IMG/VR virus record: IMGVR_UViG_3300006917_000170
Location: 1 to 22,512 of that record
Source: a virus
DNA length: 22,512 nucleotides
Direction: 5' to 3' (one strand)
Within the stretch, counting starts at the first letter, position 1, and every line of letters begins with the position of its first letter. A model generated the notes under the pieces. The model had not been told where the DNA came from and did not search any database. It saw only the letters and a list, made by a program, of their open reading frames with translations. Below are positions 504 to 14,105 of the stretch, piece by piece. Made by a program: the position numbers and the translations under genes.

Positions 504-2195
504 ATGTGGGACCTGAGCTGCCCGGACTGGGAGGACCGCATTCGGGAAGGGCGGTCAATCCTCCCGGATATGCCGCTGAACAGGGAAGAGGCCGATCTGG
601 GCCTCGCCATGTTCGATGAGTTGCGTCTGCCAGACGTGCCTGGCCTACCGAAAATGCGGACCCACTGCGGGCCATGGTTCCGCGATATCGTGCGGGCAGT
701 CTTTGGATCTTGGTTTCCGGAAGAGCAGCATCGCTATATCCGCGACATCCTGGCGATGCTGCCGAAGGGGCAGAGCAAGACGACCTACAGCGCCGGCCTG
801 CTGCTGATCATCATGCTGATGAACAACCGGCCGCGATCGGAAGCGTTGTTCGTTGCGCCGACGCAGGCGATCGCGGAGAACGCTTACGAAAAAGCGGTTG
901 GCATGATCGAGGCCTCGCCTGATCTGAAGCGCCGCTTCCTGCCGCGCGATCACCTGAAGACGATCGTCGATTTGAGGCCGGACAACCAGTCGGAGCTGAA
1001 GGTCCGTACGTTCGACGTCAACATTCTGACCGGATCGATCCTGATCGCGGCCATGGTCGACGAGCTCCATCTGCTCGGACGCAACCGGCATACCCAGAAA
1101 GTGTTGCGCCAGATCCGCGGCGGTCTGGAAAAAACGCCGGAAGGCGTGCTGCTGATCACGACGACGCAGAGCGACGACATCCCGGCCGGCGCGTTTCAGG
1201 AAGAGCTGATCAACGCCCGCAAGATCAGGAACGGAGATTTTCGCGGCAAGGTGCACCGGCCGCTCCTGCCGGTGCTGTACGAATTTCCGGCCGATATCGC
1301 CAGGGACAAGGACAAGTGGCAGAACCCCGAGAACTGGGGCCTCGTCATGCCGAACCTCGGACGTTCGGTACACCTCGCAAGCCTTGTCGCCGACTGGGAA
1401 ACGGAAAAGGCCAAGAACGACCAGGCCATCCGCATCTGGGCCAGCCAGCATCTCAATGTCGAGATGGGTGTCGGCCTGCAAACCGACGGTTGGCCGGGTG
1501 CTGCACATTGGTCCGACGCCGAAGACGAGACGATCACGATCGAGACGATGCTGCAACGCTGCGAGGTCATCGTGGCGTGCGCCGATGGTGGCGGGCTCGA
1601 TGACCTCTATGGGTTCGGGTTGATCGGCCGCGAGCGCGGCACCGGCATCTGGCTGACGTGGTCGCATGCCTGGTGCCATCGCGGTGTGCTGGAGCGCCGC
1701 AAGAGCATCGCGGCGCAACTCGAGCAGTTCGCCAAGGACAAGGAACTGACGATCGTCGACAACAAGCTGGACGACGTCGTCCAGATGGTCGAGATCATCA
1801 AGCAGGTCAACGAAGCGGGGCTTCTGGGCTGCGTCGCGCTCGATCCGGAGGGACCTTACGGCGAGCTGGTCGATGCGCTTGACGACATCGGGATCACGGA
1901 AGAAGGCGGACAGATCGTCGGCGTGCCGCAAGGCTACAAGCTGATGAACGCGATCAAGACGACGGAGCGGAAGCTCGCCAACGGCACCATGAAGCACGCC
2001 AAGTCCGGGATGATGGACTGGTGTGTGCAGAACGTCCGGATCGAGCCGACGGCCACCGCGATCCGCGCCACCAAGGCAAATGCCGGCGACGCGAAGATCG
2101 ACCCCTGGGCCGCCCTGATGGACGGGGCAACCGTGATGATCAAGAACCCGGAAGCCGTCACCAAGCCCAACTACGAACTGTTCTTCGTTGCTTGA
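504..2195 (+). CDS. terL: terminase large subunit, HK97-type
   Basis: ATP-driven DNA packaging motor and endonuclease that docks on the portal and cuts the concatemer. The 563 residues carry an N-terminal ATPase with a Walker A-like loop at about 86-93 (LPKGQSKT, the deviant lysine arrangement common in terminases). Walker B is ILIAAMVDE at about 179-187 (D186, E187), followed by a Thr-rich coupling motif at about 219-221. The C-terminal RNase H-like nuclease has candidate metal-binding acids in CADGGG (D361), ALDPEG (D447) and KIDPWAALMDGA (D533). The last matches the C-terminal KxDxxxAL signature of this family. Length is normal. It starts one base after the small-subunit stop, so the two are probably translationally coupled. 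Base composition is high GC, in contrast to the gene that follows. Confidence 0.95.
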   Translation: MWDLSCPDWEDRIREGRSILPDMPLNREEADLGLAMFDELRLPDVPGLPKMRTHCGPWFRDIVRAVFGSWFPEEQHRYIRDILAMLPKGQSKTTYSAGLLLIIMLMNNRPRSEALFVAPTQAIAENAYEKAVGMIEASPDLKRRFLPRDHLKTIVDLRPDNQSELKVRTFDVNILTGSILIAAMVDELHLLGRNRHTQKVLRQIRGGLEKTPEGVLLITTTQSDDIPAGAFQEELINARKIRNGDFRGKVHRPLLPVLYEFPADIARDKDKWQNPENWGLVMPNLGRSVHLASLVADWETEKAKNDQAIRIWASQHLNVEMGVGLQTDGWPGAAHWSDAEDETITIETMLQRCEVIVACADGGGLDDLYGFGLIGRERGTGIWLTWSHAWCHRGVLERRKSIAAQLEQFAKDKELTIVDNKLDDVVQMVEIIKQVNEAGLLGCVALDPEGPYGELVDALDDIGITEEGGQIVGVPQGYKLMNAIKTTERKLANGTMKHAKSGMMDWCVQNVRIEPTATAIRATKANAGDAKIDPWAALMDGATVMIKNPEAVTKPNYELFFVA

Positions 2196-2200
2196 ATTTG

Positions 2201-2210
2201 GTGAATTCAC
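2201..2210. repeat. 10-bp perfect palindrome after terL
   Basis: GTGAATTCAC is its own reverse complement and lies six bases after the terL stop, at the edge of the AT-richer tract holding the homing endonuclease. It might be a protein-binding site or simply chance; no T-run follows, so it is not a convincing terminator. Confidence 0.25.
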
Positions 2211-2240
2211 ATTTCCATCGGCTTGTTGCATACTGTCCGT

Positions 2241-2990
2241 ATGCAGTGCTTGTTTTCGTATAACGAAGGTCGACGGGCTGGCATCTACGAGATTTTCAAT
2301 CTCGTGAGTCGAAAGCGCTATATAGGTAGCGCGTTGAAGATTTCTCAAAGAGCGCGGCTGCACCGGTCACTTCTTGGGCGAGGCAAGCATCACAGTGCGC
2401 GTTTGCAGCAGGCGTGGGAAAAGCATGGACCGGCCGTGTTCGTGTTTAGAATAATTGAGGTTTGTGATCCACCTCAGCTAATTGCCAAAGAGCAAGCCGC
2501 GTTTGATCGCTTGCGACCGGAGTACAACGCCGCGCCCAACGCAGGAAATTGTTTGGGTGTGAAGCTGAGTGCCGAGGCGCGGGCCAAAATTTCAGCCTCA
2601 AGAATGGGAAACCAAGTTTGGCTTGGGCGAAAACACTCAGCAGAGACGCTTGCGCTCATGTCGGAGGTGCATAAGGGTAACACTAGAACCAAGGGAAAGC
2701 CTCGTAGTCCAGAGGCTGTCGAGAAGACGGCCGCTGCACATCGCGGAATGAAGAGGTCACTAGAAACGCGCGCCAAAATATCTGCGGCAATGCGTGGGAA
2801 AAAGCGCGCTCCGCGCTCCAAAGAGTGGCGCGAAGCTATCTCAGCGGCCTTGCAGGGCAAGGCCAAATCGGCATCTTCGATTGAGAAGATGCGAGCAACC
2901 AAACGCGGTCGGCAGTTAACTGCAGAGCATCGCGCCAAGATCGGTCTTGCCTCAAAAGCTGCATGGGCGGCCCGCAAGTCCGCTGGTTAA
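2241..2990 (+). CDS. GIY-YIG homing endonuclease with NUMOD3 repeats
   Basis: A selfish homing endonuclease that cuts an allele lacking it and is copied in by repair. Numbered from ATG 2241 (249 residues), the N-terminal domain shows GIY at 14-16 and YIG at 27-29. It continues with the expected Arg/His segment, the H50-H51...LQQAWEKHG block, catalytic Glu in AKEQ (E84) and the closing YNAAPNAG. From about residue 108 come five to six NUMOD3-like DNA-binding repeats of the form S-E-x-R-A-K-I-S-A-x-x-x-G-N/K (for example 108-124, 131-147, 155-170, 172-187). An in-frame TTG at 2223 would add six residues; neither start has a clear ribosome binding site. The gene lies between terL and the protease-capsid gene and is AT-richer than terL (27/60 G+C at 2281-2340 against 37/60 at 1081-1140), indicating transfer. 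It looks intact. Confidence 0.9.
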   Translation: MQCLFSYNEGRRAGIYEIFNLVSRKRYIGSALKISQRARLHRSLLGRGKHHSARLQQAWEKHGPAVFVFRIIEVCDPPQLIAKEQAAFDRLRPEYNAAPNAGNCLGVKLSAEARAKISASRMGNQVWLGRKHSAETLALMSEVHKGNTRTKGKPRSPEAVEKTAAAHRGMKRSLETRAKISAAMRGKKRAPRSKEWREAISAALQGKAKSASSIEKMRATKRGRQLTAEHRAKIGLASKAAWAARKSAG

Positions 2991-3015
2991 AAACCCCATT
3001 TTGTTCTTCATCTTC

Positions 3016-3021
3016 GGAGGG
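3016..3021 (+). promoter_or_regulatory. ribosome binding site of protease-capsid gene
   Basis: GGAGGG lies eight bases before ATG 3030, a near-ideal Shine-Dalgarno for a highly expressed structural gene. It fixes the start of the protease domain. Confidence 0.75.
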
Positions 3022-3029
3022 CGTTCGTC

Positions 3030-5012
3030 ATGGAAAAAGTGACTGACCGCGCATATTCTATTCTAGAGATCAAATCCCTCGATGATGACAAGCGCATCAT
3101 CACCGGAATTGCCACTACTCCCTCACCCGACAAGATGGACGATATCGTCGAACCGTTGGGCGTGGAATACAAACTGCCAATTCCGTTTCTGTGGCAGCAC
3201 AACGCCGACAAGCCAGTGGGTAACGTCACCAAGGCGAAAGTTACCGCTAAGGGTATTGAAGTCGAGGTTCAGATCGAGAAAACCGAAGAGCCCGGTCCTG
3301 TTAAAGATCGGCTCGATGGGGCGTGGCAAGACATTAAGTTGAGACTAGTGCGCGGCTTATCAATCGGTTTCATGGGGCTGGAAACCTCGCGCATTGAGGG
3401 CACTTTTGGCGTTAGGTTTATCAAATGGCTGTGGCTTGAATTGAGCGCTGTGACTATCGCAGCGAACGGCGACTGTTCGATTGCTACCATAAAATCAGTA
3501 GACAGGGCCCTGCGCAATGAACGCGGGACCACATCATCCGGAACGAAGACCCCTGCGGGTCCGGCTCGTTCCGTATCATTGGCCGGCTCGGCATCGAAAC
3601 AGAAAGGATCGGCTACGATGCCGAAGATGACCATTGCCGAGCAGATTGCCGGCGCCAAGGACCAGCGCGAGAAGAAGCTCGCGGAAATGAACGCCATCAT
3701 GGAGAAGGCGGTCGAGGATGGCGTGACCCTCGATGCGGCGCAGAAGGAAGCTTCCGACACGCTGGAAGCCGAGATCGCCGAACTCGACGATCACATCAAG
3801 CGCCTCGAGAAGCACGACGCGCTGAACCGCAAGGCGGCGGCGCCTGTCGGTGACGGCAAGTCGCAGGACGATGCCAGCAAGGCGCGCGGCGGCGACAAGC
3901 CGGGACGCGCCATGGTGATCGACAAGAAGCTTCCGGTCGGCACCATGTTCACCCGCTTCGTGCTGGCGCTGGCGCGCTCCAAGGGCGACCTCGTGCTGGC
4001 CGAACGCCATGTTCTCGGCAACGAGCAGTGGATGGCGGAGACGCCGGAGATCGCCGAGATCATGAAGACGGCGGTCAACGCCGGCACCACCTCGGATTCC
4101 ACCTGGGCGGCGCCGCTGGTGAACTACCAGATCATGGTGTCCGAATTCATTGAGTATCTGCGTCCGCGCACCATCATCGGCCGCATCCCGGGCCTGCGCC
4201 GGGTGCCGTTCAAGATCAAGATCCCTCGCCAGACCGGTGCGGCGACCGTCAACTGGGTCGGTGAAGGCAAGGTGAAGCCGCTGACCTCGATGGCGTTTGA
4301 TACCGTGACGCTGGAATTCGCCAAGATCGCCGGCATCATCCCGCTGACGGAGGAACTGGTTCGCTTTTCCAATCCTTCGGCGGAAGCGCTGGTGCGCGAG
4401 GAGCTCGCGAACGCGATCATCCAGTTCATGGACTCGCAGTTCGTCGATCCGACCAAGGCCAGCAACGATGTCTCGCCGGCCTCGATCACCTATGGCGTTA
4501 CCCCGGACGCACCGTCCGGCACCACGGCGGCGGCGTTCCGCGCCGACGCGAAGACGCTGCTCGGCAACATGTACGCCGCGGGCCATGCCTCCAGCCTGGT
4601 CTGGATCATGACCCAGCAGCAGGCGCTGGCGCTGTCGCTGATGCAGAACTCGCTGGGTCAGGCGCAATTCCCGGGCATCACGCCCGAGGGCGGCACGCTG
4701 CTCGGCTATCCCGTCGTCGCGTCTGAAAACATCCCGGCCGCCGGCGGATCGCCGACCGACGGCTATCCGATCATCATCGCCCGCGCGCCGGACATCCTGC
4801 TCGCGGACGACGGTCAGGTCACCATCGATGCGAGCCGCGAGGCCTCGCTGCAGATGGAGACCGCGCCGGACTCGCCGCCGACCGCGTCGACCAACATGGT
4901 CTCGCTGTGGCAGCACAACATGATCGCGATCAAGGCCGAGCGCTACATCAACTGGGGCAAGGCGCGCTCGACCGCTGTCGACCTGATCCAGGGCGCCCGC
5001 TACGCCGAGTAG
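3030..5012 (+). CDS. fused prohead protease / major capsid protein, HK97 family
   Basis: One 660-residue reading frame joins an S78-type prohead protease to an HK97-fold major capsid protein. Protease (about 10-160): catalytic His in FLWQHNAD (H57) and nucleophile Ser in VRGLSIGF (S111); E137 in LELSAV may be the third residue. A Ser/Gly/Thr-rich linker (about 163-196) follows. Then comes a charged, coiled-coil scaffolding (delta) region (about 197-300), probably removed during maturation. The capsid fold spans about 300-660 (GRIPGLRRVPFKIKIPRQTGA, VNWVGEGKVKPL, ITPEGGTLLGYPVVAS, AIKAERYINWG). The roughly 103-residue delta segment matches the length known for HK97. Protease-capsid fusions occur in other phages. 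An internal start at 3618 could supply capsid without protease. The 3030 to about 3530 part is AT-richer (28/60 G+C at 3061-3120) than the capsid part (39/60 at 4081-4140). Confidence 0.93.
   Translation: MEKVTDRAYSILEIKSLDDDKRIITGIATTPSPDKMDDIVEPLGVEYKLPIPFLWQHNADKPVGNVTKAKVTAKGIEVEVQIEKTEEPGPVKDRLDGAWQDIKLRLVRGLSIGFMGLETSRIEGTFGVRFIKWLWLELSAVTIAANGDCSIATIKSVDRALRNERGTTSSGTKTPAGPARSVSLAGSASKQKGSATMPKMTIAEQIAGAKDQREKKLAEMNAIMEKAVEDGVTLDAAQKEASDTLEAEIAELDDHIKRLEKHDALNRKAAAPVGDGKSQDDASKARGGDKPGRAMVIDKKLPVGTMFTRFVLALARSKGDLVLAERHVLGNEQWMAETPEIAEIMKTAVNAGTTSDSTWAAPLVNYQIMVSEFIEYLRPRTIIGRIPGLRRVPFKIKIPRQTGAATVNWVGEGKVKPLTSMAFDTVTLEFAKIAGIIPLTEELVRFSNPSAEALVREELANAIIQFMDSQFVDPTKASNDVSPASITYGVTPDAPSGTTAAAFRADAKTLLGNMYAAGHASSLVWIMTQQQALALSLMQNSLGQAQFPGITPEGGTLLGYPVVASENIPAAGGSPTDGYPIIIARAPDILLADDGQVTIDASREASLQMETAPDSPPTASTNMVSLWQHNMIAIKAERYINWGKARSTAVDLIQGARYAE
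3601..3620 (+). promoter_or_regulatory. candidate internal ribosome binding site and start for capsid alone
   Basis: AGAAAGGA at 3601-3608 precedes an in-frame ATG at 3618 by nine bases. This ATG (residue 197 of the fusion) sits exactly where the linker ends and the delta/scaffold coiled coil begins (MPKMTIAEQ). Initiation here would give a 464-residue capsid precursor of ordinary HK97 size. The position and spacing are seen; use of the site is inferred. Confidence 0.5.
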
Positions 5013-5327: not shown

Positions 5328-6722
5328 TTGCGTATTCCGTTCACAAATCTGGAGATTGTGTTCGGCAGCAAGGCTGCTCCCGCGGGCTCGGAGTCGCCGG
5401 GCTCCGGCGGCTGGTTTCCGCTGGTCGTGCACGAGCCATTCACCGGCGCCTGGCAGCGTAACAAGGAAATCCGCACCGAGACCGCGCTGGCCAATCATGC
5501 CGTGTTCTCGTGCATGACTATCATTGCGTCCGATGTCGCCAAGTGCCGTCCGATGCTCAAGGAAGAGGACGCAAACGGCATCTGGACCGATGTCAAGGTC
5601 CCTGCTTATTCGCCGGTGCTGGCCAAGCCGAACAATTACCAGACCATCATTCAGTTCATCGAGAACTGGGTGATGTCGAAGCTGGTGGCTGGCAATACCT
5701 ATGTCCTGCTCGAGCGCGACAACCGCAACGTCGTGGTGGCCATGTACGTGCTCGATCCGCTGCGGACCAAGCCGCTGGTGGCGCCCAATGGCGAGGTGTA
5801 CTACCAGCTTGCCAAGGACAACCTCGCGGGGATCGACGAGGACATTACGGTCCCTGCCAGCGAGATCATCCATGACCGCTGGCCGGTCACCCTGCATCCG
5901 CTGGTCGGCCTGTCGCCGCTGATGGCGTGCAAGCTGGCGGCGGCGACGTCGGAGAACATCCAGGGCCAGTCGGAGGCGTTCTTCCGCAACGGCGCGCGGC
6001 CCGGCGGCATCCTGACGACGTCGGGAAACATCAGCAAGGAAGATGCCGAGCGCATCAAGACGCATTGGGAGAACAACTACAAGGGCCAGAGCTATGGCCG
6101 CGTCGCGGTCATGGGCAATGGTCTGGAGTACAAGGCCATCGTCGAGAGCGCGGTGAATTCGCAGCTGGTCGAGCAGCTCGGCTCTGCCGGCAAGATCGTC
6201 ACCACCGCGTTCAACATCCCGGCCTACATGGTCGGCATCGGCGATCCGCCTGCGTACAACAACGTCGAAGCGCTGAACCAGCAGTATTACTCGCAGTGCC
6301 TGCAGAAGCTGTTCGAATCGATCGAGGAGCTGCTCGACTGGGGCCTTGGGCTGAAGAAGCACGCCGATCACGTCTATGGCGTAGAGCTCGACCTCGACAA
6401 CCTGCTGCGCATGGATACCGCGACGCGGATCAAGTCGTACACCGACGCCATCAAGGGCGGCCTGATGAAGCCTGACGAGGGCCGTTTGAAGATGAACCTG
6501 CCGCCGGTCGAAGGCGGCGACGAGGTCTACCTGCAGCAGCAGAACTACAGCCTGTCGGCGCTCGCCAAGCGCGATGCCAAGGAAGACCCGTTCGCGTCGT
6601 CGTCAAAGGATTCGGCGTCGGCGCCGGCCGCAACAGATGCCGACAACGACAATTCCCCCGAAGCGGTTGCCGCGACGCGCGCCATGGCTTCGTGGATCGC
6701 CCGCGACATGTTCGCGGCATAG
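5328..6722 (+). CDS. portal protein, HK97 family
   Basis: Forms the dodecameric ring at one capsid vertex through which DNA enters and to which the connector attaches. The 464-residue protein has normal portal length. Hallmarks include HAVFSCMTIIASDVAKCR near residues 61-78, then NTYVLLERDNRNVVVAMYVLDP and ASEIIHDRWP. The HPLVGLSPLMACKLAAATS helix, the RPGGIL turn, IPAYMVGIGDPPAYNNVEALNQQYY and the C-terminal ALxKRD segment follow. The TTG start at 5328 is chosen because GGAGG (5313-5317) lies ten bases upstream, inside the end of the preceding gene. A disordered Ser/Ala/Asp-rich tail ends the protein. In HK97-like phages portal normally precedes protease and capsid; here it follows them. Confidence 0.93.
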   Translation: MRIPFTNLEIVFGSKAAPAGSESPGSGGWFPLVVHEPFTGAWQRNKEIRTETALANHAVFSCMTIIASDVAKCRPMLKEEDANGIWTDVKVPAYSPVLAKPNNYQTIIQFIENWVMSKLVAGNTYVLLERDNRNVVVAMYVLDPLRTKPLVAPNGEVYYQLAKDNLAGIDEDITVPASEIIHDRWPVTLHPLVGLSPLMACKLAAATSENIQGQSEAFFRNGARPGGILTTSGNISKEDAERIKTHWENNYKGQSYGRVAVMGNGLEYKAIVESAVNSQLVEQLGSAGKIVTTAFNIPAYMVGIGDPPAYNNVEALNQQYYSQCLQKLFESIEELLDWGLGLKKHADHVYGVELDLDNLLRMDTATRIKSYTDAIKGGLMKPDEGRLKMNLPPVEGGDEVYLQQQNYSLSALAKRDAKEDPFASSSKDSASAPAATDADNDNSPEAVAATRAMASWIARDMFAA

Positions 6723-6730
6723 GAGCCCCG

Positions 6731-7735
6731 ATGCATCACGCGCACATCAAGGCGATCCTGGAAGGCGTCGTGCCGGAGATGAAATCGGCGATCGCGGCCG
6801 CAGTCGATTCGGCGACCAAGCCGCTGTTGGAGCGCATTGCGGCGCTGGAGGGGCGGTCGGCTACCAAGGGCGATCGGGGCGAGAAGGGTGAACCCGGCGC
6901 CGACGGCAAGGACGGCGCGCCAGGACGCGACGGGATCGACGGCAAGGACGGCGCGGCCGGCGCAGAAGGTCCGCCAGGCAAGGATGGCCGCGATGGCGTT
7001 GACGGCAAGGACGGCGCGCCGGGCAAGGACGGCGCCGACGGCAAAGATGGCCTGCCGGGCACCGATGGCCAGCCCGGCAAGGATGGTCGCGATGGCATCG
7101 ACGGCAAGGACGGCGCGCCCGGGCTGAATGGCAAGGATGCACCGCCGCCGACGATCGCGCAGATCACCGAGGCCCTGCTGCCCGAGCAGCCGGGTGTGAT
7201 CTCGCCTCTCAAGAAAGCGGTGCGGGACTATTTCGAGGCGTTTCCGGTGCCTGCCGGCAAGGACGGCGCTGACGGCAAGGATGGTGCCCCGGGCCGCGAT
7301 GGACAGCCGGGCGCGCCGGGCGCTGCGGGCCGCGACGGCAAGGACGGCGCCGACGGCAGGGACGGCAAGGACGGCGCTGCGGGTCGCGACGGTCTCGGCT
7401 TCGACGACCTGTCGTTCGAGTATGATGGGGAGCGCACCGTCACGCTGCGCTTCGCGCGCGGCTCGGACGTCAAGACATTCCCGATCGATCTGCCGATTCC
7501 GATCTTCCGCGATGCCTGGACGGAAGGTCAATACAAGCGCGGCGACATGGTGATGTGGGGCGGTTCGCTGTTCTGCGCGACCCGGGACACCAGGGCGAAG
7601 CCCGACAGCAACGACGACTGGAAGCTTGCAACGCGCCGCGGCCGCGACGGCAAGAACGGCGTCGACGGCAAACATGGCGAGCGCGGCTTGAAGGGAGACA
7701 AGGGTGACATCGGCCCTCGCGGCCTGCCGGCCTGA
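6731..7735 (+). CDS. collagen-like (Gly-X-Y) phage structural protein
   Basis: A 334-residue protein with a helical N-terminus (1-45, ending in a coiled-coil-like segment LLERIAALEG) that could trimerise it. Three collagen-type Gly-X-Y blocks follow: about residues 47-136 (30 Gly), 176-221 (16 Gly) and 304-331 (10 Gly), with Asp/Lys/Arg-rich X-Y positions and many GKDGAP-like units. Block 1 and 2 are split by a helical segment (140-172). Block 2 and 3 are split by a beta-type domain (223-300) containing DAWTEGQYKRGDMVMWGGSLFCA...DDWKLA, which resembles small carbohydrate-binding or fibre-tip modules. ATG 6731 is chosen over GTG 6692 because AGGAG (6721-6725) sits just upstream and avoids overlap with portal. 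Phage collagen-like proteins form fibres or capsid decorations; which applies here is unknown. Its 3' end overlaps the first glycan-cassette gene by 32 bases. Confidence 0.88.
   Translation: MHHAHIKAILEGVVPEMKSAIAAAVDSATKPLLERIAALEGRSATKGDRGEKGEPGADGKDGAPGRDGIDGKDGAAGAEGPPGKDGRDGVDGKDGAPGKDGADGKDGLPGTDGQPGKDGRDGIDGKDGAPGLNGKDAPPPTIAQITEALLPEQPGVISPLKKAVRDYFEAFPVPAGKDGADGKDGAPGRDGQPGAPGAAGRDGKDGADGRDGKDGAAGRDGLGFDDLSFEYDGERTVTLRFARGSDVKTFPIDLPIPIFRDAWTEGQYKRGDMVMWGGSLFCATRDTRAKPDSNDDWKLATRRGRDGKNGVDGKHGERGLKGDKGDIGPRGLPA
6869..7138 (+). repeat. Gly-X-Y coding repeat, block 1
   Basis: About 30 consecutive triplets coding Gly-X-Y, built from imperfect 9- to 18-base units around GGCAAGGACGGC. 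Such repeats can expand or contract by recombination, so length variation between related phages is expected. Confidence 0.85.
7256..7393 (+). repeat. Gly-X-Y coding repeat, block 2
   Basis: Sixteen Gly-X-Y triplets of the same GKDGADGRDG style as block 1, separated from it by a non-repetitive helical segment. The similarity at the DNA level suggests internal duplication. Confidence 0.8.
7640..7723 (+). repeat. Gly-X-Y coding repeat, block 3
   Basis: Ten Gly-X-Y triplets ending the collagen-like protein. The ribosome binding site (AAGGGAG, 7691-7697) and GTG start (7704) of the next gene lie inside this block, coupling the two genes. Confidence 0.75.
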
Positions 7736-8390
7736 CGCCCCGGTCTGGTTTCCGGACTGGTCCGGTGCGGCCTGCGCGATTGTCGCGACCGGTCCATCCG
7801 TGAAAGCGCAGCGCGCGGAAATCGATCGGCTGTGCGGGCGCATCAAGGTCATTGCCATCAAGGAGGCGGCGGTTGACCTCTGTCCATGGGCGGACGTCGC
7901 CTATGGCTGCGACGCCGCGTGGTGGGTGCATCGGCGAGGTCTGCCGGAGTTTGCGGGCCTCAAGATCGGCTGGGATCGATCCATCGGCAAGCAGTTTCCG
8001 GCCGTGCATCTGATCGAGATTTGCCGGGCGAAAAACTACACGCTGCATCGCCCGGAATATGTCGACCGGATTTTGACCGACCAGCCCGGGATGATCGGGT
8101 CCGGGCGCAACTCAGGCTTCCAGGCCATCAATCTGGCCGTGCAGTTCGGTGCGATCCGCATCATGCTGATCGGCTTCGACCTGCAGGGCTCCCACTATTA
8201 CGGGCGCAATAGTTGGCTGCGGGCCGGCAACCCGGACGAACACCAGTTCGACCGCTGCCGTCTGGCCTATCAGCAGAACGCGCCGCGTTTGAAGGAATTG
8301 GGCGTCGACGTCGTGAACGTCTCGCCGGTCTCGACCATCAACTGCTTTCGCCGCTCGACCATCGAGCGCGAACTCCCAAACTGGTGCTGA
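7704..8390 (+). CDS. DUF115/MptE-like (Maf-type) Rossmann protein, copy 1
   Basis: A 228-residue protein of the DUF115 type, the Rossmann-like domain found in Maf-family flagellin glycosyltransferases and in MptE-like enzymes. Visible motifs: PDWSG at 17-21, nucleotide-binding-like ATGPS at 28-32, WADVAYGCDAAWW at 62-74 and the family block GSGRNSGFQAINLAVQFGA-RIMLIGFD at about 132-159. GTG 7704 is the start because AAGGGAG (7691-7697) lies six bases upstream within the collagen-like gene. The following gene begins at the base after its stop. A clear paralogue lies at 15503-16168. Likely role: transfer or processing of an activated sugar, possibly onto a virion protein; the substrate cannot be read from sequence. 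Confidence 0.78.
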   Translation: MTSALAACRPDAPVWFPDWSGAACAIVATGPSVKAQRAEIDRLCGRIKVIAIKEAAVDLCPWADVAYGCDAAWWVHRRGLPEFAGLKIGWDRSIGKQFPAVHLIEICRAKNYTLHRPEYVDRILTDQPGMIGSGRNSGFQAINLAVQFGAIRIMLIGFDLQGSHYYGRNSWLRAGNPDEHQFDRCRLAYQQNAPRLKELGVDVVNVSPVSTINCFRRSTIERELPNWC

Positions 8391-9176
8391 ATGGATTCGA
8401 TCTGGATTGGCTTTGATCCGCGGCCGGCGGAAGTCATGGCGTTCGCAGTAACTCGCGAAAGCGTGAAGCGGCACCTGTCGCGACAGATTCCCGTGTTCGG
8501 CCTCGTGCTCGATGAATTGCGTGCCGCGGGCCTCTACACGCGGCCGACGGAAGTGAGGGCCAGCGCGGCCGATCGCCCGGTGCTGTGGGACGTGATTTCG
8601 GATGCGCCGATGGCAACCGAGTTTGCCATCTCGCGCTTCCTGGTGCCGTATCTGGCGCGGCAGAAGCAGGTGCAGACGTTCCGCCCGCTCTCGGGTGGAA
8701 GCCGCTCGGTGCAACTTCCGGCAGGTTGGGCGCTGTTCATGGATGGCGACATGCTGGCGCGGGTCAACCTGGCGCGCCTCACCGAACAGATCGACCGCAC
8801 CAAGGCGGTTTACTGCGTGAAGCACAACCACGTTCCCTCCGCTGACGTCAAAATGGACGGGCAGGTGCAGACGGCCTATTCCCGCAAGAACTGGTCGTCG
8901 TTCATGCTGTTCAATTGCGGCCATGAAGCCAACAAGGAATTGACCGTCGATATGGTCAACCGCCTGCCGGGCCGCGACCTGCACCGGTTCTGCTGGCTCG
9001 ACGACAGCGAGATCGGCGAGCTTGATCCGTCCTGGAATTGGCTGGTCGGTCACTCCGACCCGTTCATCGATCCGAAGGTGGTGCACTTTACCGACGGCTG
9101 CCCCAACATGGCCGGCTATGAGAACGTGCGGTTCGCCGACGAGTGGCGGTCCATGCTCGGAAGGTGGGCCGCCTGA
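8391..9176 (+). CDS. putative GT-A glycosyltransferase (DGD motif)
   Basis: A 261-residue protein with the layout of a retaining GT-A/GT8-like glycosyltransferase: an N-terminal beta strand (IWIGFDPRPAEVMAF), helix SRFLVPYLAR, then a strand leading into the metal-binding DXD motif FMDGDM (D118-D120). Later elements are NWSSFMLFNCGH (about 168-178), LDPSWNWLVG (about 211-220) and VVHFTDGCP (about 230-238), which resemble the acceptor and second metal-binding regions of this superfamily. It follows directly on the DUF115-like gene (TGA 8388-8390, ATG 8391) and its stop overlaps the next ATG by one base. It belongs to the glycan cassette; donor and acceptor are unknown. Confidence 0.75.
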   Translation: MDSIWIGFDPRPAEVMAFAVTRESVKRHLSRQIPVFGLVLDELRAAGLYTRPTEVRASAADRPVLWDVISDAPMATEFAISRFLVPYLARQKQVQTFRPLSGGSRSVQLPAGWALFMDGDMLARVNLARLTEQIDRTKAVYCVKHNHVPSADVKMDGQVQTAYSRKNWSSFMLFNCGHEANKELTVDMVNRLPGRDLHRFCWLDDSEIGELDPSWNWLVGHSDPFIDPKVVHFTDGCPNMAGYENVRFADEWRSMLGRWAA

Positions 9177-9940
9177 TGCTGCGCGTCGTCACCACCATGA
9201 ACCGGGCCGGCTGGAAGCAGACCGGCGCGCGCATGGTGGAATCCTTCCGCAAGCACTGGCCTGCGGATGTCGAGTTCCTGCTCTATGCCGAGGACTTCGA
9301 TCCGAACGTGTCAGGCGTCACTGTCAAGGCGCTGCCGGCATGGCTCCGCGAGTTCAAGGCCCGGCACAAGGACAACCGCGTCGCGCACGGGCAGATGCCG
9401 ACGCGCTATGACTTCCGCTTCGATGCGGTGAAGTTCTCTCACAAGGTGGCGGCGGTGACGGACGCCGGCCTGTCTCAGGATGATGGCGTGATGATCTGGC
9501 TCGATGCCGATACGTTCACCCATGCCAACGTCACCCATGAGTGGCTGGCGTCACTATTCCCGGAGCCGTCCTACATCGCCTGGCTCGACAGGGTGAATCA
9601 TTATCCGGAGTGCGGCTTCGTCATGTACCGCTGCTCGCACCGGTCGCACCGGATGGCGATGGAGGCCTTTCGCGATCTCTACATCAGTGACCAGCTGTTC
9701 CGGCTGGGCCAGACCCACGACTGCATCGCGCTCCAGCATTTGATCGAGAGCATGGCGCGCGCCGGCGATATCGAGGCGCCCGTGAGTTTGTCCGGCAGCG
9801 GAAGGCGCGCCAGCCATGTGCTCGCGAACTCACCCTTGTCGAGCAGGATAGATCACTTGAAGGGCAGCAGAAAGTCTGTAGGACGCACCCCGAAGAGCGA
9901 GCGTTTTCTGGTGCACGACGGTAATCCGTATTGGTCATGA
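9176..9940 (+). CDS. putative GT-A glycosyltransferase (DAD motif)
   Basis: A 254-residue protein starting MLRVVTTMNRAGWKQTGARMVESFRKHWP, a common opening for GT-A enzymes of capsule or phage clusters. The DXD motif is WLDADTF (D110-D112), followed by ECGFVMYR (about 145-152) and a late acidic HDCIALQHLIE helix. ATG 9176 is chosen over an upstream in-frame start at 9143: it overlaps the preceding TGA as TGATG, with GGAAGG about eleven bases upstream. The C-terminus (about 203-254) is basic and Ser-rich. It is likely a sugar transferase in the same cassette as its neighbours. Confidence 0.72.
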   Translation: MLRVVTTMNRAGWKQTGARMVESFRKHWPADVEFLLYAEDFDPNVSGVTVKALPAWLREFKARHKDNRVAHGQMPTRYDFRFDAVKFSHKVAAVTDAGLSQDDGVMIWLDADTFTHANVTHEWLASLFPEPSYIAWLDRVNHYPECGFVMYRCSHRSHRMAMEAFRDLYISDQLFRLGQTHDCIALQHLIESMARAGDIEAPVSLSGSGRRASHVLANSPLSSRIDHLKGSRKSVGRTPKSERFLVHDGNPYWS

Positions 9941-9955
9941 ATTCTGTGAGGATGG

Positions 9956-10534
9956 ATGACGCTGCTGTTGAACTCCGAAAACAAGCTGATGCGGCGCGTG
10001 GCCGGATATCACGACATCCGCATGGATGGGATGACCGATCTTGTCCTGCGCGCCCGCGACGCCCGCGTGCTCGACATCGGTTGTAACCGCGGGCTGGTGG
10101 GTTTCGAGTTCGCCAACAACGGCGCCAGCCTGGTGCATGGTTGCGATATCGACCAGGAGTGCATCGCGGTGGCGCGTCACCTGTTCTGCGACCTGCGGGC
10201 GGTGACGGCCAAGTTCGAAGTGGTCGATCTCGTCGGCGGGCCGAAGGCCTTTGCGGCGGCGTTCGGCGATCAGAAGTATGACATCATCGTCATGCTGGCG
10301 ACCTATCACAAGCTCAAGCGGGTGATGGCGGACCATGATCTGGCGGCCCTGATCAAGGACTGGGGCCAGCGCTGCGAGAAGTATTTCGCCTGGCGCGCCA
10401 CCTCCGACAAGCCGCACGAAAACGACCAGGAAATGCGCAATCTCGATCGGGACCTAGGCGCCGTCGGCATGAAGCGCATCCACACCTCGCACATCTCGCT
10501 GCAGCTCGGCATCTGCGCCGTCTGGTCGAAATAG
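9956..10534 (+). CDS. class I SAM-dependent methyltransferase
   Basis: A 192-residue Rossmann-fold methyltransferase. Motif I is VLDIGCNRG (38-46), the SAM-binding acidic loop is HGCDIDQECIAVAR (about 61-74), and KYDIIVMLATYHKL (about 107-120) is the motif IV/V region. It resembles enzymes placed in sugar or glycan clusters, so O-methylation of a sugar is the best guess. DNA or protein methylation is not excluded; no target-recognition domain is seen. ATG 9956 follows a purine-rich GTGAGGATGG. Stop TAG at 10532-10534 is one base before the GTG of the next gene, consistent with one transcript. Confidence 0.78.
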   Translation: MTLLLNSENKLMRRVAGYHDIRMDGMTDLVLRARDARVLDIGCNRGLVGFEFANNGASLVHGCDIDQECIAVARHLFCDLRAVTAKFEVVDLVGGPKAFAAAFGDQKYDIIVMLATYHKLKRVMADHDLAALIKDWGQRCEKYFAWRATSDKPHENDQEMRNLDRDLGAVGMKRIHTSHISLQLGICAVWSK

Positions 10535-10535
10535 C

Positions 10536-11216
10536 GTGCTGACGGTCGTCACCTATTGGTGGGGCGCCAAGTATGGCGCACACGAAGTCCGCAAGCTGAT
10601 GGCTGGCCTGCATCGGGGGATGCAGGAACCGTTTCGCTTCATGGCGATCACGGATAATGTCAACCGCGAACCGGATATCCCGAAGTGGGAGATCCCGGAG
10701 CAGGACCTGCACCTGACGAAAATCCCCGGGTGCCTTGCAAGGCTACGTTTGTTCGACCCCGAGTGGCAGCAGCAGAACGGCATTCTTGAGGGTTCGCGGA
10801 TCGTCTGCATCGATCTAGACGTGGTGGTGACCGGCGATCTCTACCCACTGCTCTATCGCGCGGAAAACTTCATGATCCTGCAGGGGGCGAATGCGTCGAA
10901 CCCTTGCCCCTACAACGGATCGATCTGGATGCTGCGGGCCGGCTACCGACCTGACGTGTGGTCGGACTTTTCGCTGGAGGCGGCCGACAAGGTCAAGCAC
11001 GCGCCGTTTGCTGACGATCAGTCCTGGTTCGCGCACAAGCTGCCGAATTCCGGCGGATGGCAGGCCGGTCCCTCCAGCGGCGTCTATGCGTTCAAGAAGC
11101 CGGGCTGGCCTGAAGGCGACGATCTTCCGAAGGGGGCTGCGCTGGTGGTGTTTCCGGGCTGGCGGTCGCCGGACAAGTTCACGCATCTGCGGTGGATAAG
11201 AGAGCATTGGCGATGA
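10536..11216 (+). CDS. putative glycosyltransferase (DLD motif), copy 1 of a pair
   Basis: A 226-residue GT-A-like protein: MLTVVTYWWGAKYGAHEVRKLMAGL, then PFRFMAITDN (about 32-41), GSRIVCIDLDVVV with DXD at D93-D95, YNGSIWML (about 126-133), DDQSWFAHKL (about 160-169) and VVFPGWRSPDK (about 204-214). The order and spacing fit a small family of phage/rhizobial glycosyltransferases. The gene at 13470-14105 shares the EPFRF-like segment, the DLD-like strand and the terminal basic W-I-K/R-H-W ending, so the two look paralogous. GTG 10536 is the only reasonable start; its stop overlaps the ATG of the epimerase (ATGA). Confidence 0.75.
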   Translation: MLTVVTYWWGAKYGAHEVRKLMAGLHRGMQEPFRFMAITDNVNREPDIPKWEIPEQDLHLTKIPGCLARLRLFDPEWQQQNGILEGSRIVCIDLDVVVTGDLYPLLYRAENFMILQGANASNPCPYNGSIWMLRAGYRPDVWSDFSLEAADKVKHAPFADDQSWFAHKLPNSGGWQAGPSSGVYAFKKPGWPEGDDLPKGAALVVFPGWRSPDKFTHLRWIREHWR

Positions 11217-11842
11217 GGATCGTCGTTACCGGTTCGGAGGGGTTCATCGGCAAGCACCTGGTGCGCGCGCTGCAGAAAGCCGGGCACGAGGTGATCGGGC
11301 TCGACATCAAGAGTGGCCAGGACGTCCGCACCTGCGAACTGCCGGATGCCGATATTGTCTACCACCTTGCGGCGCAGACGGATGCGACCTGTACCGATGC
11401 GCGGGCGGATGCCGACGTCAACGTGATGGGCATGCTGCGGCTGCTGTTGCACTACCAGACCGCTATGGTGTTCGTCTCATCGGCGATGGTGTCATATCCC
11501 GTGACGCCCTATGCCATCGCCAAGTTCGCCGGCGAGATGTACTGCAAGATTTACGGCGCATCCGTTGTCCGACTCTGCAACATCCATGGCCCGGGCGGTC
11601 ACAGCGTGATCGACCGGTTCGCGCGGGATGAAGTGCTCACGGTCTATGGGTCTGGCCGGCAGTCCCGCGAATATGCGCATGTCGACGCGGCCGTGGCCAT
11701 GCTGATGGAGGAACTGAAGGAGCGGCAACCGATGCGGCTTCTCAACGGCGAGCGGCTGTCGGTGCTGGACGTGCTCGCACGTCACCCGAGCAAGCCCTAC
11801 GCTTTCGTGCCGGAGCGTCCGTTCGATCCGGTGCTGGCTTGA
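11213..11842 (+). CDS. short NAD-dependent sugar epimerase/dehydratase (extended SDR)
   Basis: A nucleotide-sugar modifying enzyme of the extended short-chain dehydrogenase family. Visible: the NAD-binding loop TGSEGFIG (6-13), acidic D31 at the end of strand 2, DIVYHLAAQT (47-56), the Ser/Tyr/Lys catalytic set VSSAMVS...YAIAK (S89/S90, Y100, K104), and REYAHVDAAVA (152-162). At 209 residues it is about 100 shorter than the usual 310, lacking most of the C-terminal substrate domain. ATG 11213 is chosen over 11192: it forms an ATGA overlap with the preceding stop. Its 3' end abuts an AT-rich insertion-like segment and overlaps the antisense Arc-like gene by 101 bases. It may therefore be truncated, or a genuine minimal form. 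Confidence 0.78.
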   Translation: MRIVVTGSEGFIGKHLVRALQKAGHEVIGLDIKSGQDVRTCELPDADIVYHLAAQTDATCTDARADADVNVMGMLRLLLHYQTAMVFVSSAMVSYPVTPYAIAKFAGEMYCKIYGASVVRLCNIHGPGGHSVIDRFARDEVLTVYGSGRQSREYAHVDAAVAMLMEELKERQPMRLLNGERLSVLDVLARHPSKPYAFVPERPFDPVLA

Positions 11843-12086
11843 TTTTGTTGTCTGGAGGATTTTGTTCTTTGCGCCATATGATCTGTGTCGGATTCATGTA
11901 CGCGATAAAATCCCTGGCCGCGATGTCGAGTTTTTGTTTCGCAAAACTCCAGGTTAGCCGTGCAACAATCTCAGCATTCATCGAGACGCCATTACGTTTT
12001 GCGGACTGAGTGATCATACGGTTCAGTTCTTTGCTCATTCGGACGCCAGTTTGCACTTTGAAACGGCTGAATTTCTTTATGGGCAC
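11742..12086 (-). CDS. Arc-family ribbon-helix-helix repressor
   Basis: The only convincing minus-strand gene. The N-terminal 50 residues match the Arc/MetJ ribbon-helix-helix pattern. A basic beta strand (KKFSRFKVQTGVRMS) is followed by helix KELNRMITQSAKRNG, then SMNAEIVARL, the Arc signature S-x-N-A-E-I. Such proteins dimerise and repress promoters. The GTG start (12084-12086) has AGGAG eight bases upstream on this strand. The remaining region (about 82-114) is Pro/Arg/Lys-rich and is read antisense through the 3' end of the epimerase, so it is probably an accidental tail after loss of the original stop. DNA here is AT-richer (28/60 G+C at 11881-11940). Likely role: autoregulation or control of the cassette or another phage promoter. 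Confidence 0.8.
   Translation of the reverse strand: MPIKKFSRFKVQTGVRMSKELNRMITQSAKRNGVSMNAEIVARLTWSFAKQKLDIAARDFIAYMNPTQIIWRKEQNPPDNKIKPAPDRTDAPARKRRACSGDVRARPAPTAARR
11841..11866. repeat. 9-bp direct repeat at the island boundary
   Basis: GATTTTGTT occurs at 11841-11849 and again at 11858-11866, straddling the stop of the short epimerase and the start of the AT-rich segment. It may mark the junction of a recombination event, but short T-rich repeats also arise by chance. Confidence 0.25.
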
Positions 12087-12094
12087 TGGTTGTT

Positions 12095-12099
12095 CTCCT
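12095..12099 (-). promoter_or_regulatory. ribosome binding site of the Arc-like gene
   Basis: AGGAG on the minus strand, eight bases before the GTG start at 12086. It decides the start and supports the antisense gene being expressed. Confidence 0.65.
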
Positions 12100-12121
12100 G
12101 GTGGTAGGGGCTAATAGTGGG

Positions 12122-12149
12122 GTTATATCTTAAATGATCAATCCTGCAA
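12122..12149 (-). promoter_or_regulatory. candidate sigma70-type promoter for the Arc-like gene
   Basis: On the minus strand TTGCAG (12144-12149) and TATAAC (12122-12127) are separated by 16 bases, about 36 bases upstream of the GTG start of the repressor. The -35 box lies within the first codons of the + strand gene that starts at 12134. It would give the repressor its own transcript, independent of the late operon. Confidence 0.35.
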
Positions 12150-12946
12150 AGGCCTGCCTCTTCATTCCGGAGGGGCTGAAGAAGTTCAAGCTCGACTTGT
12201 TCAACCGGATCGGCGGGTACATCGAGAAGCAGGGCGGGCAGGTGGTTCGCCATGATGCGTCGAGGCTGGCGGCCTTGCCGGATGACATCATTCCAATTGT
12301 CGGCTGTCAGCCGGAATCGACCGACCTAATCATCGAATGGCGCAAGCGCAGGCGGGACTGGATTTACTGGGACAGGGGCTACTTCCGCAGGTGGTTTGCG
12401 GTCGATCCGTCCAATAAGGCCGGCTCCCTGGAGGAGTCCTACTACCGCTGGCATCTGAACAGCTTCCAGCTGCGCTCCGTGCCCAAGGTTTCGGACGACC
12501 GGTGGAAGAGGCTCAAGATCGAGCCGCGGCCGTGGCGCAAGCAGGGCCGGCACATCGTGATCGCGGCGCCGTCAAAGACCTATGTGAAGTATCACCGTTG
12601 CGAGAACTGGCTCGAGGAGACGCTGGACACCATCGCCCGGATTACCGACCGGCAGCTGGTGATCCGGCACAAGGAACAGGTTTTGACTCGTCCCTTGTCT
12701 AGGGATTTGGAGGGCGCGCACTGCCTGATCGCGCATGCCTCGATCGCGGCGGTAGAGGCCGTGATGTTCGGTTGCCCGGTGTTCGTTCATCCGGACAGTG
12801 CTGCGGCTTTGGTCGGTAAGACCAACCTGAAAGAGATCGAAAAGCCGGCCTGTCCCGACCGGGAAGGCTGGTTTCACGCTCTGGCGGCATCGCAATGGAG
12901 CGAGCTGGAGCTGGTGGACGGAACGCTATGGCGCAGCATTACATGA
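12134..12946 (+). CDS. GT-B-like capsule/glycan synthesis protein (putative)
   Basis: A 270-residue protein whose C-terminal half ends strands and helices in a GT-B manner. RHIVIAAPSK (about 139-148) is a strand with a phosphate-type loop. RQLVIRHKEQ (about 173-182) and HCLIAHASIAAVEAVMFGCPVFVHPDSAA (about 196-224) match the nucleotide-sugar binding end of capsular polysaccharide and glycerophosphotransferase-like enzymes. The N-terminal half (WRKRRRDWIYWDRGYF) is unusual and not recognised. No good ribosome binding site precedes ATG 12134, because the region upstream is the divergent repressor segment. Its stop overlaps the following acyltransferase frame. Probable role: sugar transfer in the cassette. 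Confidence 0.65.
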   Translation: MINPAKACLFIPEGLKKFKLDLFNRIGGYIEKQGGQVVRHDASRLAALPDDIIPIVGCQPESTDLIIEWRKRRRDWIYWDRGYFRRWFAVDPSNKAGSLEESYYRWHLNSFQLRSVPKVSDDRWKRLKIEPRPWRKQGRHIVIAAPSKTYVKYHRCENWLEETLDTIARITDRQLVIRHKEQVLTRPLSRDLEGAHCLIAHASIAAVEAVMFGCPVFVHPDSAAALVGKTNLKEIEKPACPDREGWFHALAASQWSELELVDGTLWRSIT

Positions 12947-13470
12947 TCGACCACACGGCGCGCATCCATCCGCGCGCCGAAGTGCACGACTCGATCATCG
13001 GCGCGCGCACGAAAGTGTGGCAGTTTGCAACCGTGATCCGCGACGCGCATGTCGGCGAGGACTGCAGCATAGCATCCTGTGCCATTGTGGACGGCGCCGA
13101 TCTTGGCGACCGCACGATTGTCAGTCACGGCGCGTTCATCGATCCCGGCATTGTCATCGGGTCGGATGTGTTCATCGGTCCCGGCGTGAAACTCTGCAAC
13201 GACGCATGGCCGCGCGCCGACAAGACGGGTTTCGACATGGCCGCACTGATCAGTCATGATCTCGTGACGACGCGGATTGAGGATGGCGCAAGCCTTGGCG
13301 CCGGCGTGATCGTGCTGCCGGGCATCGTGATTGGCAGGGATGCGATGATCGCGGCCGGTGCCGTGGTGACGCAGAACGTGCCGGCCAATCACCTCTACAA
13401 GCGCGACGGGTCGATGGTGCCGATTGACCCTGCCCGCAAGGTGGAGCGGATGCGCCGGGCCGGTGCCTGA
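12928..13470 (+). CDS. left-handed beta-helix acyltransferase (WbpD/WlbB/QdtC-like)
   Basis: A 180-residue hexapeptide-repeat enzyme that probably N- or O-acetylates a nucleotide sugar. Hexapeptide turns (I/V-G-x-x-x-x) run from about residues 12 to 90 and 115 to 150. These flank the loop KLCNDAWPRADKTGFD (88-103), which contains the ND-x-x-PR signature of amino-sugar N-acetyltransferases of the WbpD/WlbB/QdtC type. A C-terminal helix (PARKVERMRRAGA) ends it. ATG 12928 is chosen as the start; in-frame ATGs at 12895 and 12943 are alternatives, the last overlapping the upstream stop as ATGA. The stop overlaps the next ATG (TGATG). It implies an acylated amino sugar in the product, though no aminotransferase is present in the window. 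Confidence 0.83.
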   Translation: MAQHYMIDHTARIHPRAEVHDSIIGARTKVWQFATVIRDAHVGEDCSIASCAIVDGADLGDRTIVSHGAFIDPGIVIGSDVFIGPGVKLCNDAWPRADKTGFDMAALISHDLVTTRIEDGASLGAGVIVLPGIVIGRDAMIAAGAVVTQNVPANHLYKRDGSMVPIDPARKVERMRRAGA

Positions 13471-14105
13471 TGCTGCATGTGGCGTGCTGTCTGTGGGATG
13501 CGAATAGCCACTCACAGTCCTTCTCGACGATGTACGACGAGTCCTGGGTCGAGAAGCTGTACCGTGGTTTCCGGCGTCATCTGACCGTTCCTTTTCGGTT
13601 TGTGTGTTTTACGGATCGCGACCGGCGGTTCGGTGAGGCGGAAATCGTGCAGGAACGGCTCGCGACCGCCGAGCCGCACTATGGATGCCTGATCGAGCCG
13701 TTCCGGCTGAACGAGCCCACCATCATCTGCGGCCTCGACATGATCGTGGTGCGCAACATCAATCATTTCGCGGAGTATTGCCTGACGGCGCCGACCGTGG
13801 CCCTGCCTGCCCACCCGACCAATAAGGCAAAGTTCGGGTTCATCAATCCGGTGGTATTCGTGCCGGCGGGCTTTCGATGGCTTGCCGAACAATGGTGCGG
13901 CGAAAACGACATGAAGTTCCTGCAGGGCAGGGGCTTTGCGGATGCGCAGGAATTATGGCCGGCACAGATCCTCTCGCTCAAGCTCAACGCTGTGCCTTAC
14001 GGATCGAACCCTCCGGCGGCGGCGCGGATCATTTACATGCACGGAAACAAGAAGCCGCACGAGTTGGTCGACCGCGTGCCCTGGATCAAACAGCATTGGG
14101 TGTAA
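13470..14105 (+). CDS. putative glycosyltransferase-like protein, copy 2, degenerate DXD
   Basis: A 211-residue relative of the protein at 10536-11216. Shared are the KLYRGFRRHLTVPFRFVCFTDRD opening (about 29-51), a strand leading to a D-containing turn, and the final WIKQHW. Where copy 1 has DLD, this copy reads CGLDMIVV, so the first Asp is Gly (G88) and only D90 remains. KFGFINPVVFV (about 121-131) and MHGNKKPHEL (about 190-199) resemble the later metal and acceptor motifs. It may be a transferase using another metal ligand, a partner subunit, or inactive. It is the last gene of the accessory island; the connector gene follows three bases later. Confidence 0.65.
   Translation: MLHVACCLWDANSHSQSFSTMYDESWVEKLYRGFRRHLTVPFRFVCFTDRDRRFGEAEIVQERLATAEPHYGCLIEPFRLNEPTIICGLDMIVVRNINHFAEYCLTAPTVALPAHPTNKAKFGFINPVVFVPAGFRWLAEQWCGENDMKFLQGRGFADAQELWPAQILSLKLNAVPYGSNPPAAARIIYMHGNKKPHELVDRVPWIKQHWV

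Follow-up and report, generated by a model that had tools for sequence, protein, structure and literature searches.

Does a homing endonuclease gene (HEG) bring its essential neighbour with it when it enters a phage genome? The question is raised by a viral locus in which a HEG lies between the large terminase gene, terL, and a gene that fuses a prohead protease to a major capsid protein, and in which G+C is low over the HEG and the protease half of the fused gene. Homing endonucleases are suspected drivers of phage mosaicism, a view for which T4 crosses have supplied most of the direct evidence. The window, by which we mean the whole stretch of DNA analysed, is a viral record from a metagenome, linear and 22,512 bases long.

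Gene order and the low-G+C tract

The fused protease-capsid gene of the window is preceded by terS and terL and followed by portal. The parts of the locus are:

504..2195, + strand: terL, large terminase; normal composition, GC3 0.82
2196..2240, + strand: short spacer between terL and HEG; left edge of the low-GC tract
2241..2990, + strand: free-standing GIY-YIG/NUMOD3 homing endonuclease gene (Pfam, PHROG 314, alignments)
2991..3029, + strand: spacer between HEG and protease; strong SD GGAGG at 3016-3020 for the protease start
3030..3530, + strand: prohead protease domain (Peptidase_S78) of the fused gene; GC3 0.58-0.59
3531..3617, + strand: linker; GC3 still low, changepoint at 3615; similarity switches from protease kin to capsid kin
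3603..3608, + strand: internal SD-like AAAGGA, 9 nt before ATG 3618; kept across relatives
3618..5012, + strand: major capsid part (Phage_capsid), HK97-type; GC3 0.89; probable own translation start at 3618

The HEG starts at ATG 2241, with an alternative TTG at 2223 also open. Its product matches PF01541 (2.6e-6, 28.1 bits, cut-off 22.6) and PF07460 (3e-13, 49.8 bits, cut-off 20.4), and the key GIY-YIG residues are invariant in alignments with relatives. The terL gene upstream is complete, as is the protease downstream, which has its own SD and start, and an Rfam scan of the window at the gathering score finds no intron. By its predicted domains and its stand-alone position, the gene is of the free-standing homing endonuclease type. 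Among the relatives recovered in a search with the window HEG, none is close enough to name a donor. The fused ORF, 3030-5012, matches PHROG 617 over nearly its full length (2e-151, residues 3-657) as an S78 protease joined to an HK97-type capsid. Further downstream, between portal and head-tail adaptor, the structural cluster of the window contains a collagen-repeat gene and about nine other genes (6692-14105), including an NAD-dependent epimerase (PF01370) and, by eye, probable sugar-transfer, methyltransferase and acetyltransferase genes.

G+C is 0.530 over 2196-3530, compared with 0.624 over the whole window; no 1335-bp segment of the record is lower than the one beginning at 2168 (0.524), and away from this region the minimum is 0.576. 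GC3 is 0.551 in the HEG and 0.579 in the protease part, compared with 0.806 +/- 0.035 in the other genes (z -7.4 and -6.5, respectively). A codon table trained on the HEG fits the protease better than does a size-matched table from the remaining genes; such a better fit is confined to the HEG and the protease, and the reverse holds for every other gene of the window. Sliding G+C, GC3 and codon tables thus confirm the island that an earlier sequence-only reading had placed over the HEG and the protease half of the fused gene, and the fall in G+C that it set at the terL stop codon (2193-2195) is, within resolution, the left edge. On the right, its claim that the boundary lies inside one reading frame holds, but the exact place it gave, the end of the protease domain at 3530, does not. 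The best GC3 changepoint in the fused ORF is at codon 195, position 3615, about 85 nt further right (GC3 0.58 before and 0.89 after; log-likelihood gain 37.5, compared with a maximum of 11.0 in 1000 permutations).

The changepoint lies three bases before an in-frame ATG (3618-3620) with AAAGGA upstream, indicating that the edge corresponds to the capsid's own start and not to the end of the protease domain. Among fused relatives (n=128), the capsid start coincides with an in-frame ATG in 119, and an SD-like sequence precedes that ATG in 108 of the 128 fused ORFs, compared with 9% at other in-frame ATGs. This conservation suggests that the fused gene is probably a two-start gene, making both a protease-capsid fusion and a separately started capsid, with translation of the latter predicted to begin at ATG 3618. 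A breakpoint at the capsid's internal start preserves both the fusion and the free capsid products, and it can fall within one reading frame because it sits at that conserved start.

An assembly chimera, or a misjoined metagenomic contig, is a highly improbable source of this arrangement. The record consists of one linear contig of a metagenomic virus, and a search for a near-identical record found none; however, protease and capsid are joined without a frame break, by a linker that carries the conserved SD and ATG, and the order terL-HEG-protease-capsid is found in 14 other non-redundant loci, one of them a Devosia MAG contig. The genome-contig search returned no matches with the window protein alone and did return matches with an alignment query.

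Ancestry of the protease and comparison with HEG-less loci

The terL, protease and capsid of the window have different closest kin. In the nearest relatives of terL (61-67%), terL is followed by portal and not by a protease gene. The window protease is most similar to that of L069 (73% identical), followed by those of L072, L050, L334 and L051 (69-72%). The capsid is closest to that of L002 (67%), while protease identity to L002 is only 51%. Along the fused protein, similarity switches between these kin sets in the linker, at 3495-3630. The protease and capsid trees are incongruent: for the protease, two groupings taken from the capsid tree are rejected, that of the window with L002 (AU p 0.002) and that of the window with L002 and L241 (AU p 0.0005). 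L069 and L072 have no endonuclease, and their protease GC3 is normal (0.78 and 0.75), indicating that the window protease is unlikely to have inherited its low GC3 from an ancestor shared with them. The protease next to the window HEG is donor-like and phylogenetically discordant with the rest, the pattern of a co-conversion tract.

All loci retrieved were scanned with profiles of terL, protease, capsid and endonuclease. Non-redundant loci with both protease and capsid number 164, and in 15 of them a GIY-YIG gene separates terL from the protease; for GC3, with the window omitted, 14 HEG-bearing loci were compared with 143 HEG-less loci. Capsid minus protease GC3 is 0.106 in HEG-bearing loci and 0.013 in HEG-less loci (p=2.8e-5), with a maximum of 0.17 among the latter, compared with 0.29 in the window. 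Similarly, terL minus protease GC3 is 0.108 versus -0.005 (p=2.6e-6), and capsid minus terL GC3 is alike in the two groups (p=0.48). The deficit is 0.15 in the first 40 protease codons, on the HEG side (p=1.5e-7), and 0.08-0.09 over the remaining protease, and no terL or capsid bin differs; it is strongest beside the HEG and bounded, as is expected of co-conversion. The possibility that any insert in the terL-protease gap accompanies low protease GC3 was rejected, as non-HEG inserts in that gap (25 loci) have no effect on protease GC3. Two HEG-bearing loci, L219 and L371, are exceptions with no deficit, and L384 has the divergent protease type of a clade described below and low protease GC3, yet no HEG. 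The effect remains when five related proteases are collapsed to one (p=5e-4). Phylogenetically independent pairs on the capsid tree run 7:1 in the same direction at a 0.10 threshold, with a median p of 0.07, so that relatedness among loci may still contribute.

These comparisons also bear on whether the HEG and the protease could have become AT-rich separately, the HEG as a selfish, poorly codon-adapted gene and the protease through weak expression or constraint on its 5' part, with no joint transfer. Such an origin is disfavoured and improbable. Capsid GC3 (0.888) is the highest among the genes of the window, and protease GC3 in HEG-less relatives is on average marginally below that of the capsid, by the 0.013 given above; however, in the same 143 loci protease GC3 equals terL GC3 (mean difference -0.005). 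Moreover, the window protease lies 6.5 SD below the other genes, its nearest HEG-less counterparts have normal GC3, and the protease and capsid phylogenies conflict.

Sequence divergence gives a further comparison. In pairs of loci with similar terL (at least 50% identical) and capsid (at least 60% identical), protease identity is 46% when one of the two carries a HEG, four HEG-bearing loci contributing, and 68% when neither does (p=1e-6; per locus, p=0.002). L295 and L215, for example, are 77% identical in terL, 77% in capsid and 42% in protease. In tree tests with 62 loci, the HEG label requires nine changes on the protease tree, with 0/500 shuffles as low, and 15 changes on the capsid tree, no better than chance; HEG presence clusters by the protease tree and not by the capsid tree.

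The sequence-only reading had proposed that the protease was acquired with the endonuclease, and it named congruent protease and capsid trees, or HEG-less relatives with the same protease composition, as outcomes that would speak against this. The trees conflict, the HEG-less relatives have normal GC3, and the arrangement recurs in the 14 other loci, all of which supports the proposal; protease divergence, which it suggested comparing with that of HEG-less relatives, is, where flanks are alike, greater in HEG-bearing/HEG-less pairs than in pairs without a HEG. The island, 2196-3617, is probably one recently acquired tract, consisting of the HEG and the adjoining protease from a phage of lower GC3 and replacing the recipient's protease up to the capsid start, most likely via homing and co-conversion. 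In this mechanism, which we infer from sequence from the cleavage onwards, the predicted endonuclease would cut HEG-less relatives at a putative site near the start of the protease gene. Double-strand-break repair on the HEG-bearing genome would copy the HEG and convert the downstream protease. The tract would tend to resolve in the variable linker ahead of the capsid start, where an in-frame join would preserve both the fusion and the capsid made from the internal start.

Interrupted protease starts, possible HEG turnover and the HEG leader

Four HEG-bearing loci keep the first codons of another protease between the terL stop and the HEG. These stubs read MNRMYSVLTVK* in L315, MTVTRRAYSSLTIKAVDHV* in L338, MTLTRAYSLLG in L219 and MQDRAYRLG in L231. 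At the position of the L315 stub, the HEG-less locus L168, whose terL is 79% identical to that of L315, reads MNRMYSILTVKAVEE, identifying the stub as the resident protease, broken within codons ~7-17. L315 ends inside the protease and is outside the 15 loci of the composition test. In the stub loci, the protease after the HEG, which has its own SD, reads as the incoming copy. The window spacer, 2196..2240, contains no stub of a resident protease.

The proteases of the HEG-bearing loci L227, L230, L231, L295 and L338 lie downstream of the HEG, form one divergent clade (stem 1.13, support 100) and are 73-77% identical among themselves, whereas their capsids lie in different lineages (capsid clade rejected, AU p<1e-60). 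L315 carries the same divergent protease type, and the stub is kept in three of the divergent-protease loci, L231, L338 and L315. As a tentative reading, these loci could represent a natural 'home and rescue' element, in which the endonuclease invades the start of the essential capsid-protease gene and brings an altered protease that restores function and may be resistant to cutting. The altered 5' codons of one HEG-bearing clade suggest such cleavage resistance of the carried protease. Over 27 nt, mismatches to the HEG-less consensus number 10.2 in HEG-bearing and 8.0 in HEG-less loci (p=0.005), mainly owing to the five-member clade; an altered target site was accordingly rejected as a general sign of resistance, and the window keeps RAYSILEIK at the protease 5' end. 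The replacement of the common VTIPAN by VT[IV]AAN, considered as a mark of HEG-bearing proteases, was dropped, as it is also present in five HEG-less proteases.

Endonuclease genes of another type occur in two loci. An HNH-type gene, recognized by eye, lies in the terL-protease gap of L392 (1989-2736), beside the divergent protease, and another, likewise by eye, lies between protease and capsid in L064 (5120-6145).

HEG and protease distances among HEG-bearing loci are uncorrelated (Mantel rho 0.03-0.07), the HEG tree being poorly resolved, and HEG divergence is strong even between loci whose proteases are 73-77% identical, indicating that the two do not evolve together as a single stable cassette. 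A strict cassette, with one HEG lineage bound to one protease lineage, was rejected on these distances and on the divergent, HEG-less protease of L384. Across loci, HEG and flank trees lack the congruence expected of a shared donor lineage; turnover of HEGs around a constant cargo would give the same incongruence.

The mismatch between HEG and protease trees fits ordinary modular exchange, by homologous or illegitimate recombination at conserved gene boundaries, in which the HEG would be a passenger in the donor's terL-protease gap and not the driver. Protease and capsid are commonly shuffled without HEGs (in this set of loci, gathered mainly through the protease, 534 HEG-less pairs have protease at least 65% and capsid below 45% identical), which leaves this alternative real weight, and the different closest kin of the three window genes also fit it. 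We nevertheless consider it rather unlikely: the composition difference between HEG-bearing and HEG-less proteases, with no effect of other inserts in the same gap, the replaced protease between alike flanks, and the stubs of the resident protease start immediately 5' of the HEG all speak against it. Homing with co-conversion remains the reading that we prefer.

A structured leader lies just 5' of the GIY-YIG gene in 12 HEG-bearing loci and comprises an outer 7-bp stem, an inner 4-bp hairpin, a TAACCA tail and an SD. Its positions are:

L334:2203-2277; L231:3413-3488; L050:2379-2456; L241:2979-3057
L227:3419-3494; L230:3367-3446; L295:3416-3494; L338:3663-3739
L051:4306-4383; L219:4256-4331; L315:3791-3866; L322:3908-3985

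Covariation is strong, with 95.5% of cells paired compared with 76% after shuffling and a score of 0.61 compared with 0.20 (0/500), and an Rfam search of eight of the 12 loci gave no match for the leader. The leader model also matches L232, L288, L268, L286, L264, L266, L343, L377 and L252, mostly just 5' of a GIY-YIG gene; it has no match in the window, including the spacer 2196..2240. By analogy with the T4 HEG hairpins, the leader is possibly a new RNA family controlling HEG expression. Separately, an int-alpA RNA (Rfam RF02996) lies 3' of the capsid gene in L050 (5577-5642).

Relation to known systems

It is established that free-standing phage endonucleases bring about co-conversion and marker exclusion (PMC2988022), as in the intronless homing and localized marker exclusion of T4 SegF and SegG (reviewed in PMC2988022). 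As with SegF and SegG, a free-standing GIY-YIG gene lies beside an essential gene, and the donor's neighbour gene is expected to replace that of the recipient. Unlike in those systems, the neighbour here is a prohead protease fused to a capsid, the evidence for the tract is compositional and phylogenetic and does not come from crosses, and in some loci, as the stubs reveal, the HEG sits within the first part of the gene it targets.

In the HEG islands of Barth et al. 2023, HEGs mark the limits of genetic exchange close to terminase, capsid and protease genes, and they are interchangeable around constant cargo in islands of >10 kb that are highly identical at the DNA level (PMC10448857). The mismatch of HEG and protease trees described here likewise suggests that cargo is kept while HEGs interchange. 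In contrast to the islands, the cargo here is a single gene or half a fused gene with defined edges, and a quantitative comparison of HEG-bearing and HEG-less loci is added. The window has one HEG, whereas essential cargo with HEGs on both sides, as in HEG islands, is found in L310. In L310 (3995-6179), a ClpP-type protease (PF00574) takes the place of the S78 protease between terL and the same capsid family, flanked by two GIY-YIG/NUMOD3 genes with ATGA/GTGA overlaps in a compact HEG-protease-HEG cassette.

In the literature searched we found no earlier case of a protease exchanged within a gene that fuses protease and capsid, for which the two edges and the stubs are described and a controlled comparison is made. 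In the 15 non-redundant loci compared, the foreign gene is the one adjoining the endonuclease, and only that one; the disrupted resident gene is caught in four phages, and both edges of the tract are located. The loci offer a testable system with defined donors, defined recipients and a candidate cleavage region (the codons for RAYSLLEIK).

Another point of comparison is mobE, a free-standing HEG inside nrdA of Aeromonas phage Aeh1, where the gene is in pieces and both pieces are used. Both systems place a free-standing HEG inside an essential phage gene; unlike in nrdA, the 5' stub here is dead, and the protease downstream of the HEG is whole, with an SD and a start of its own. A review covers both mobE and Aeh1 (PMC2988022). 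A design parallel to the tentative home-and-rescue reading is HomeR, a synthetic drive which directs a homing nuclease against an essential gene and carries a functional replacement (PMC7968924). On that reading, the loci described here would share with HomeR a nuclease aimed at an essential gene and a carried replacement; they differ in being natural and phage-borne.
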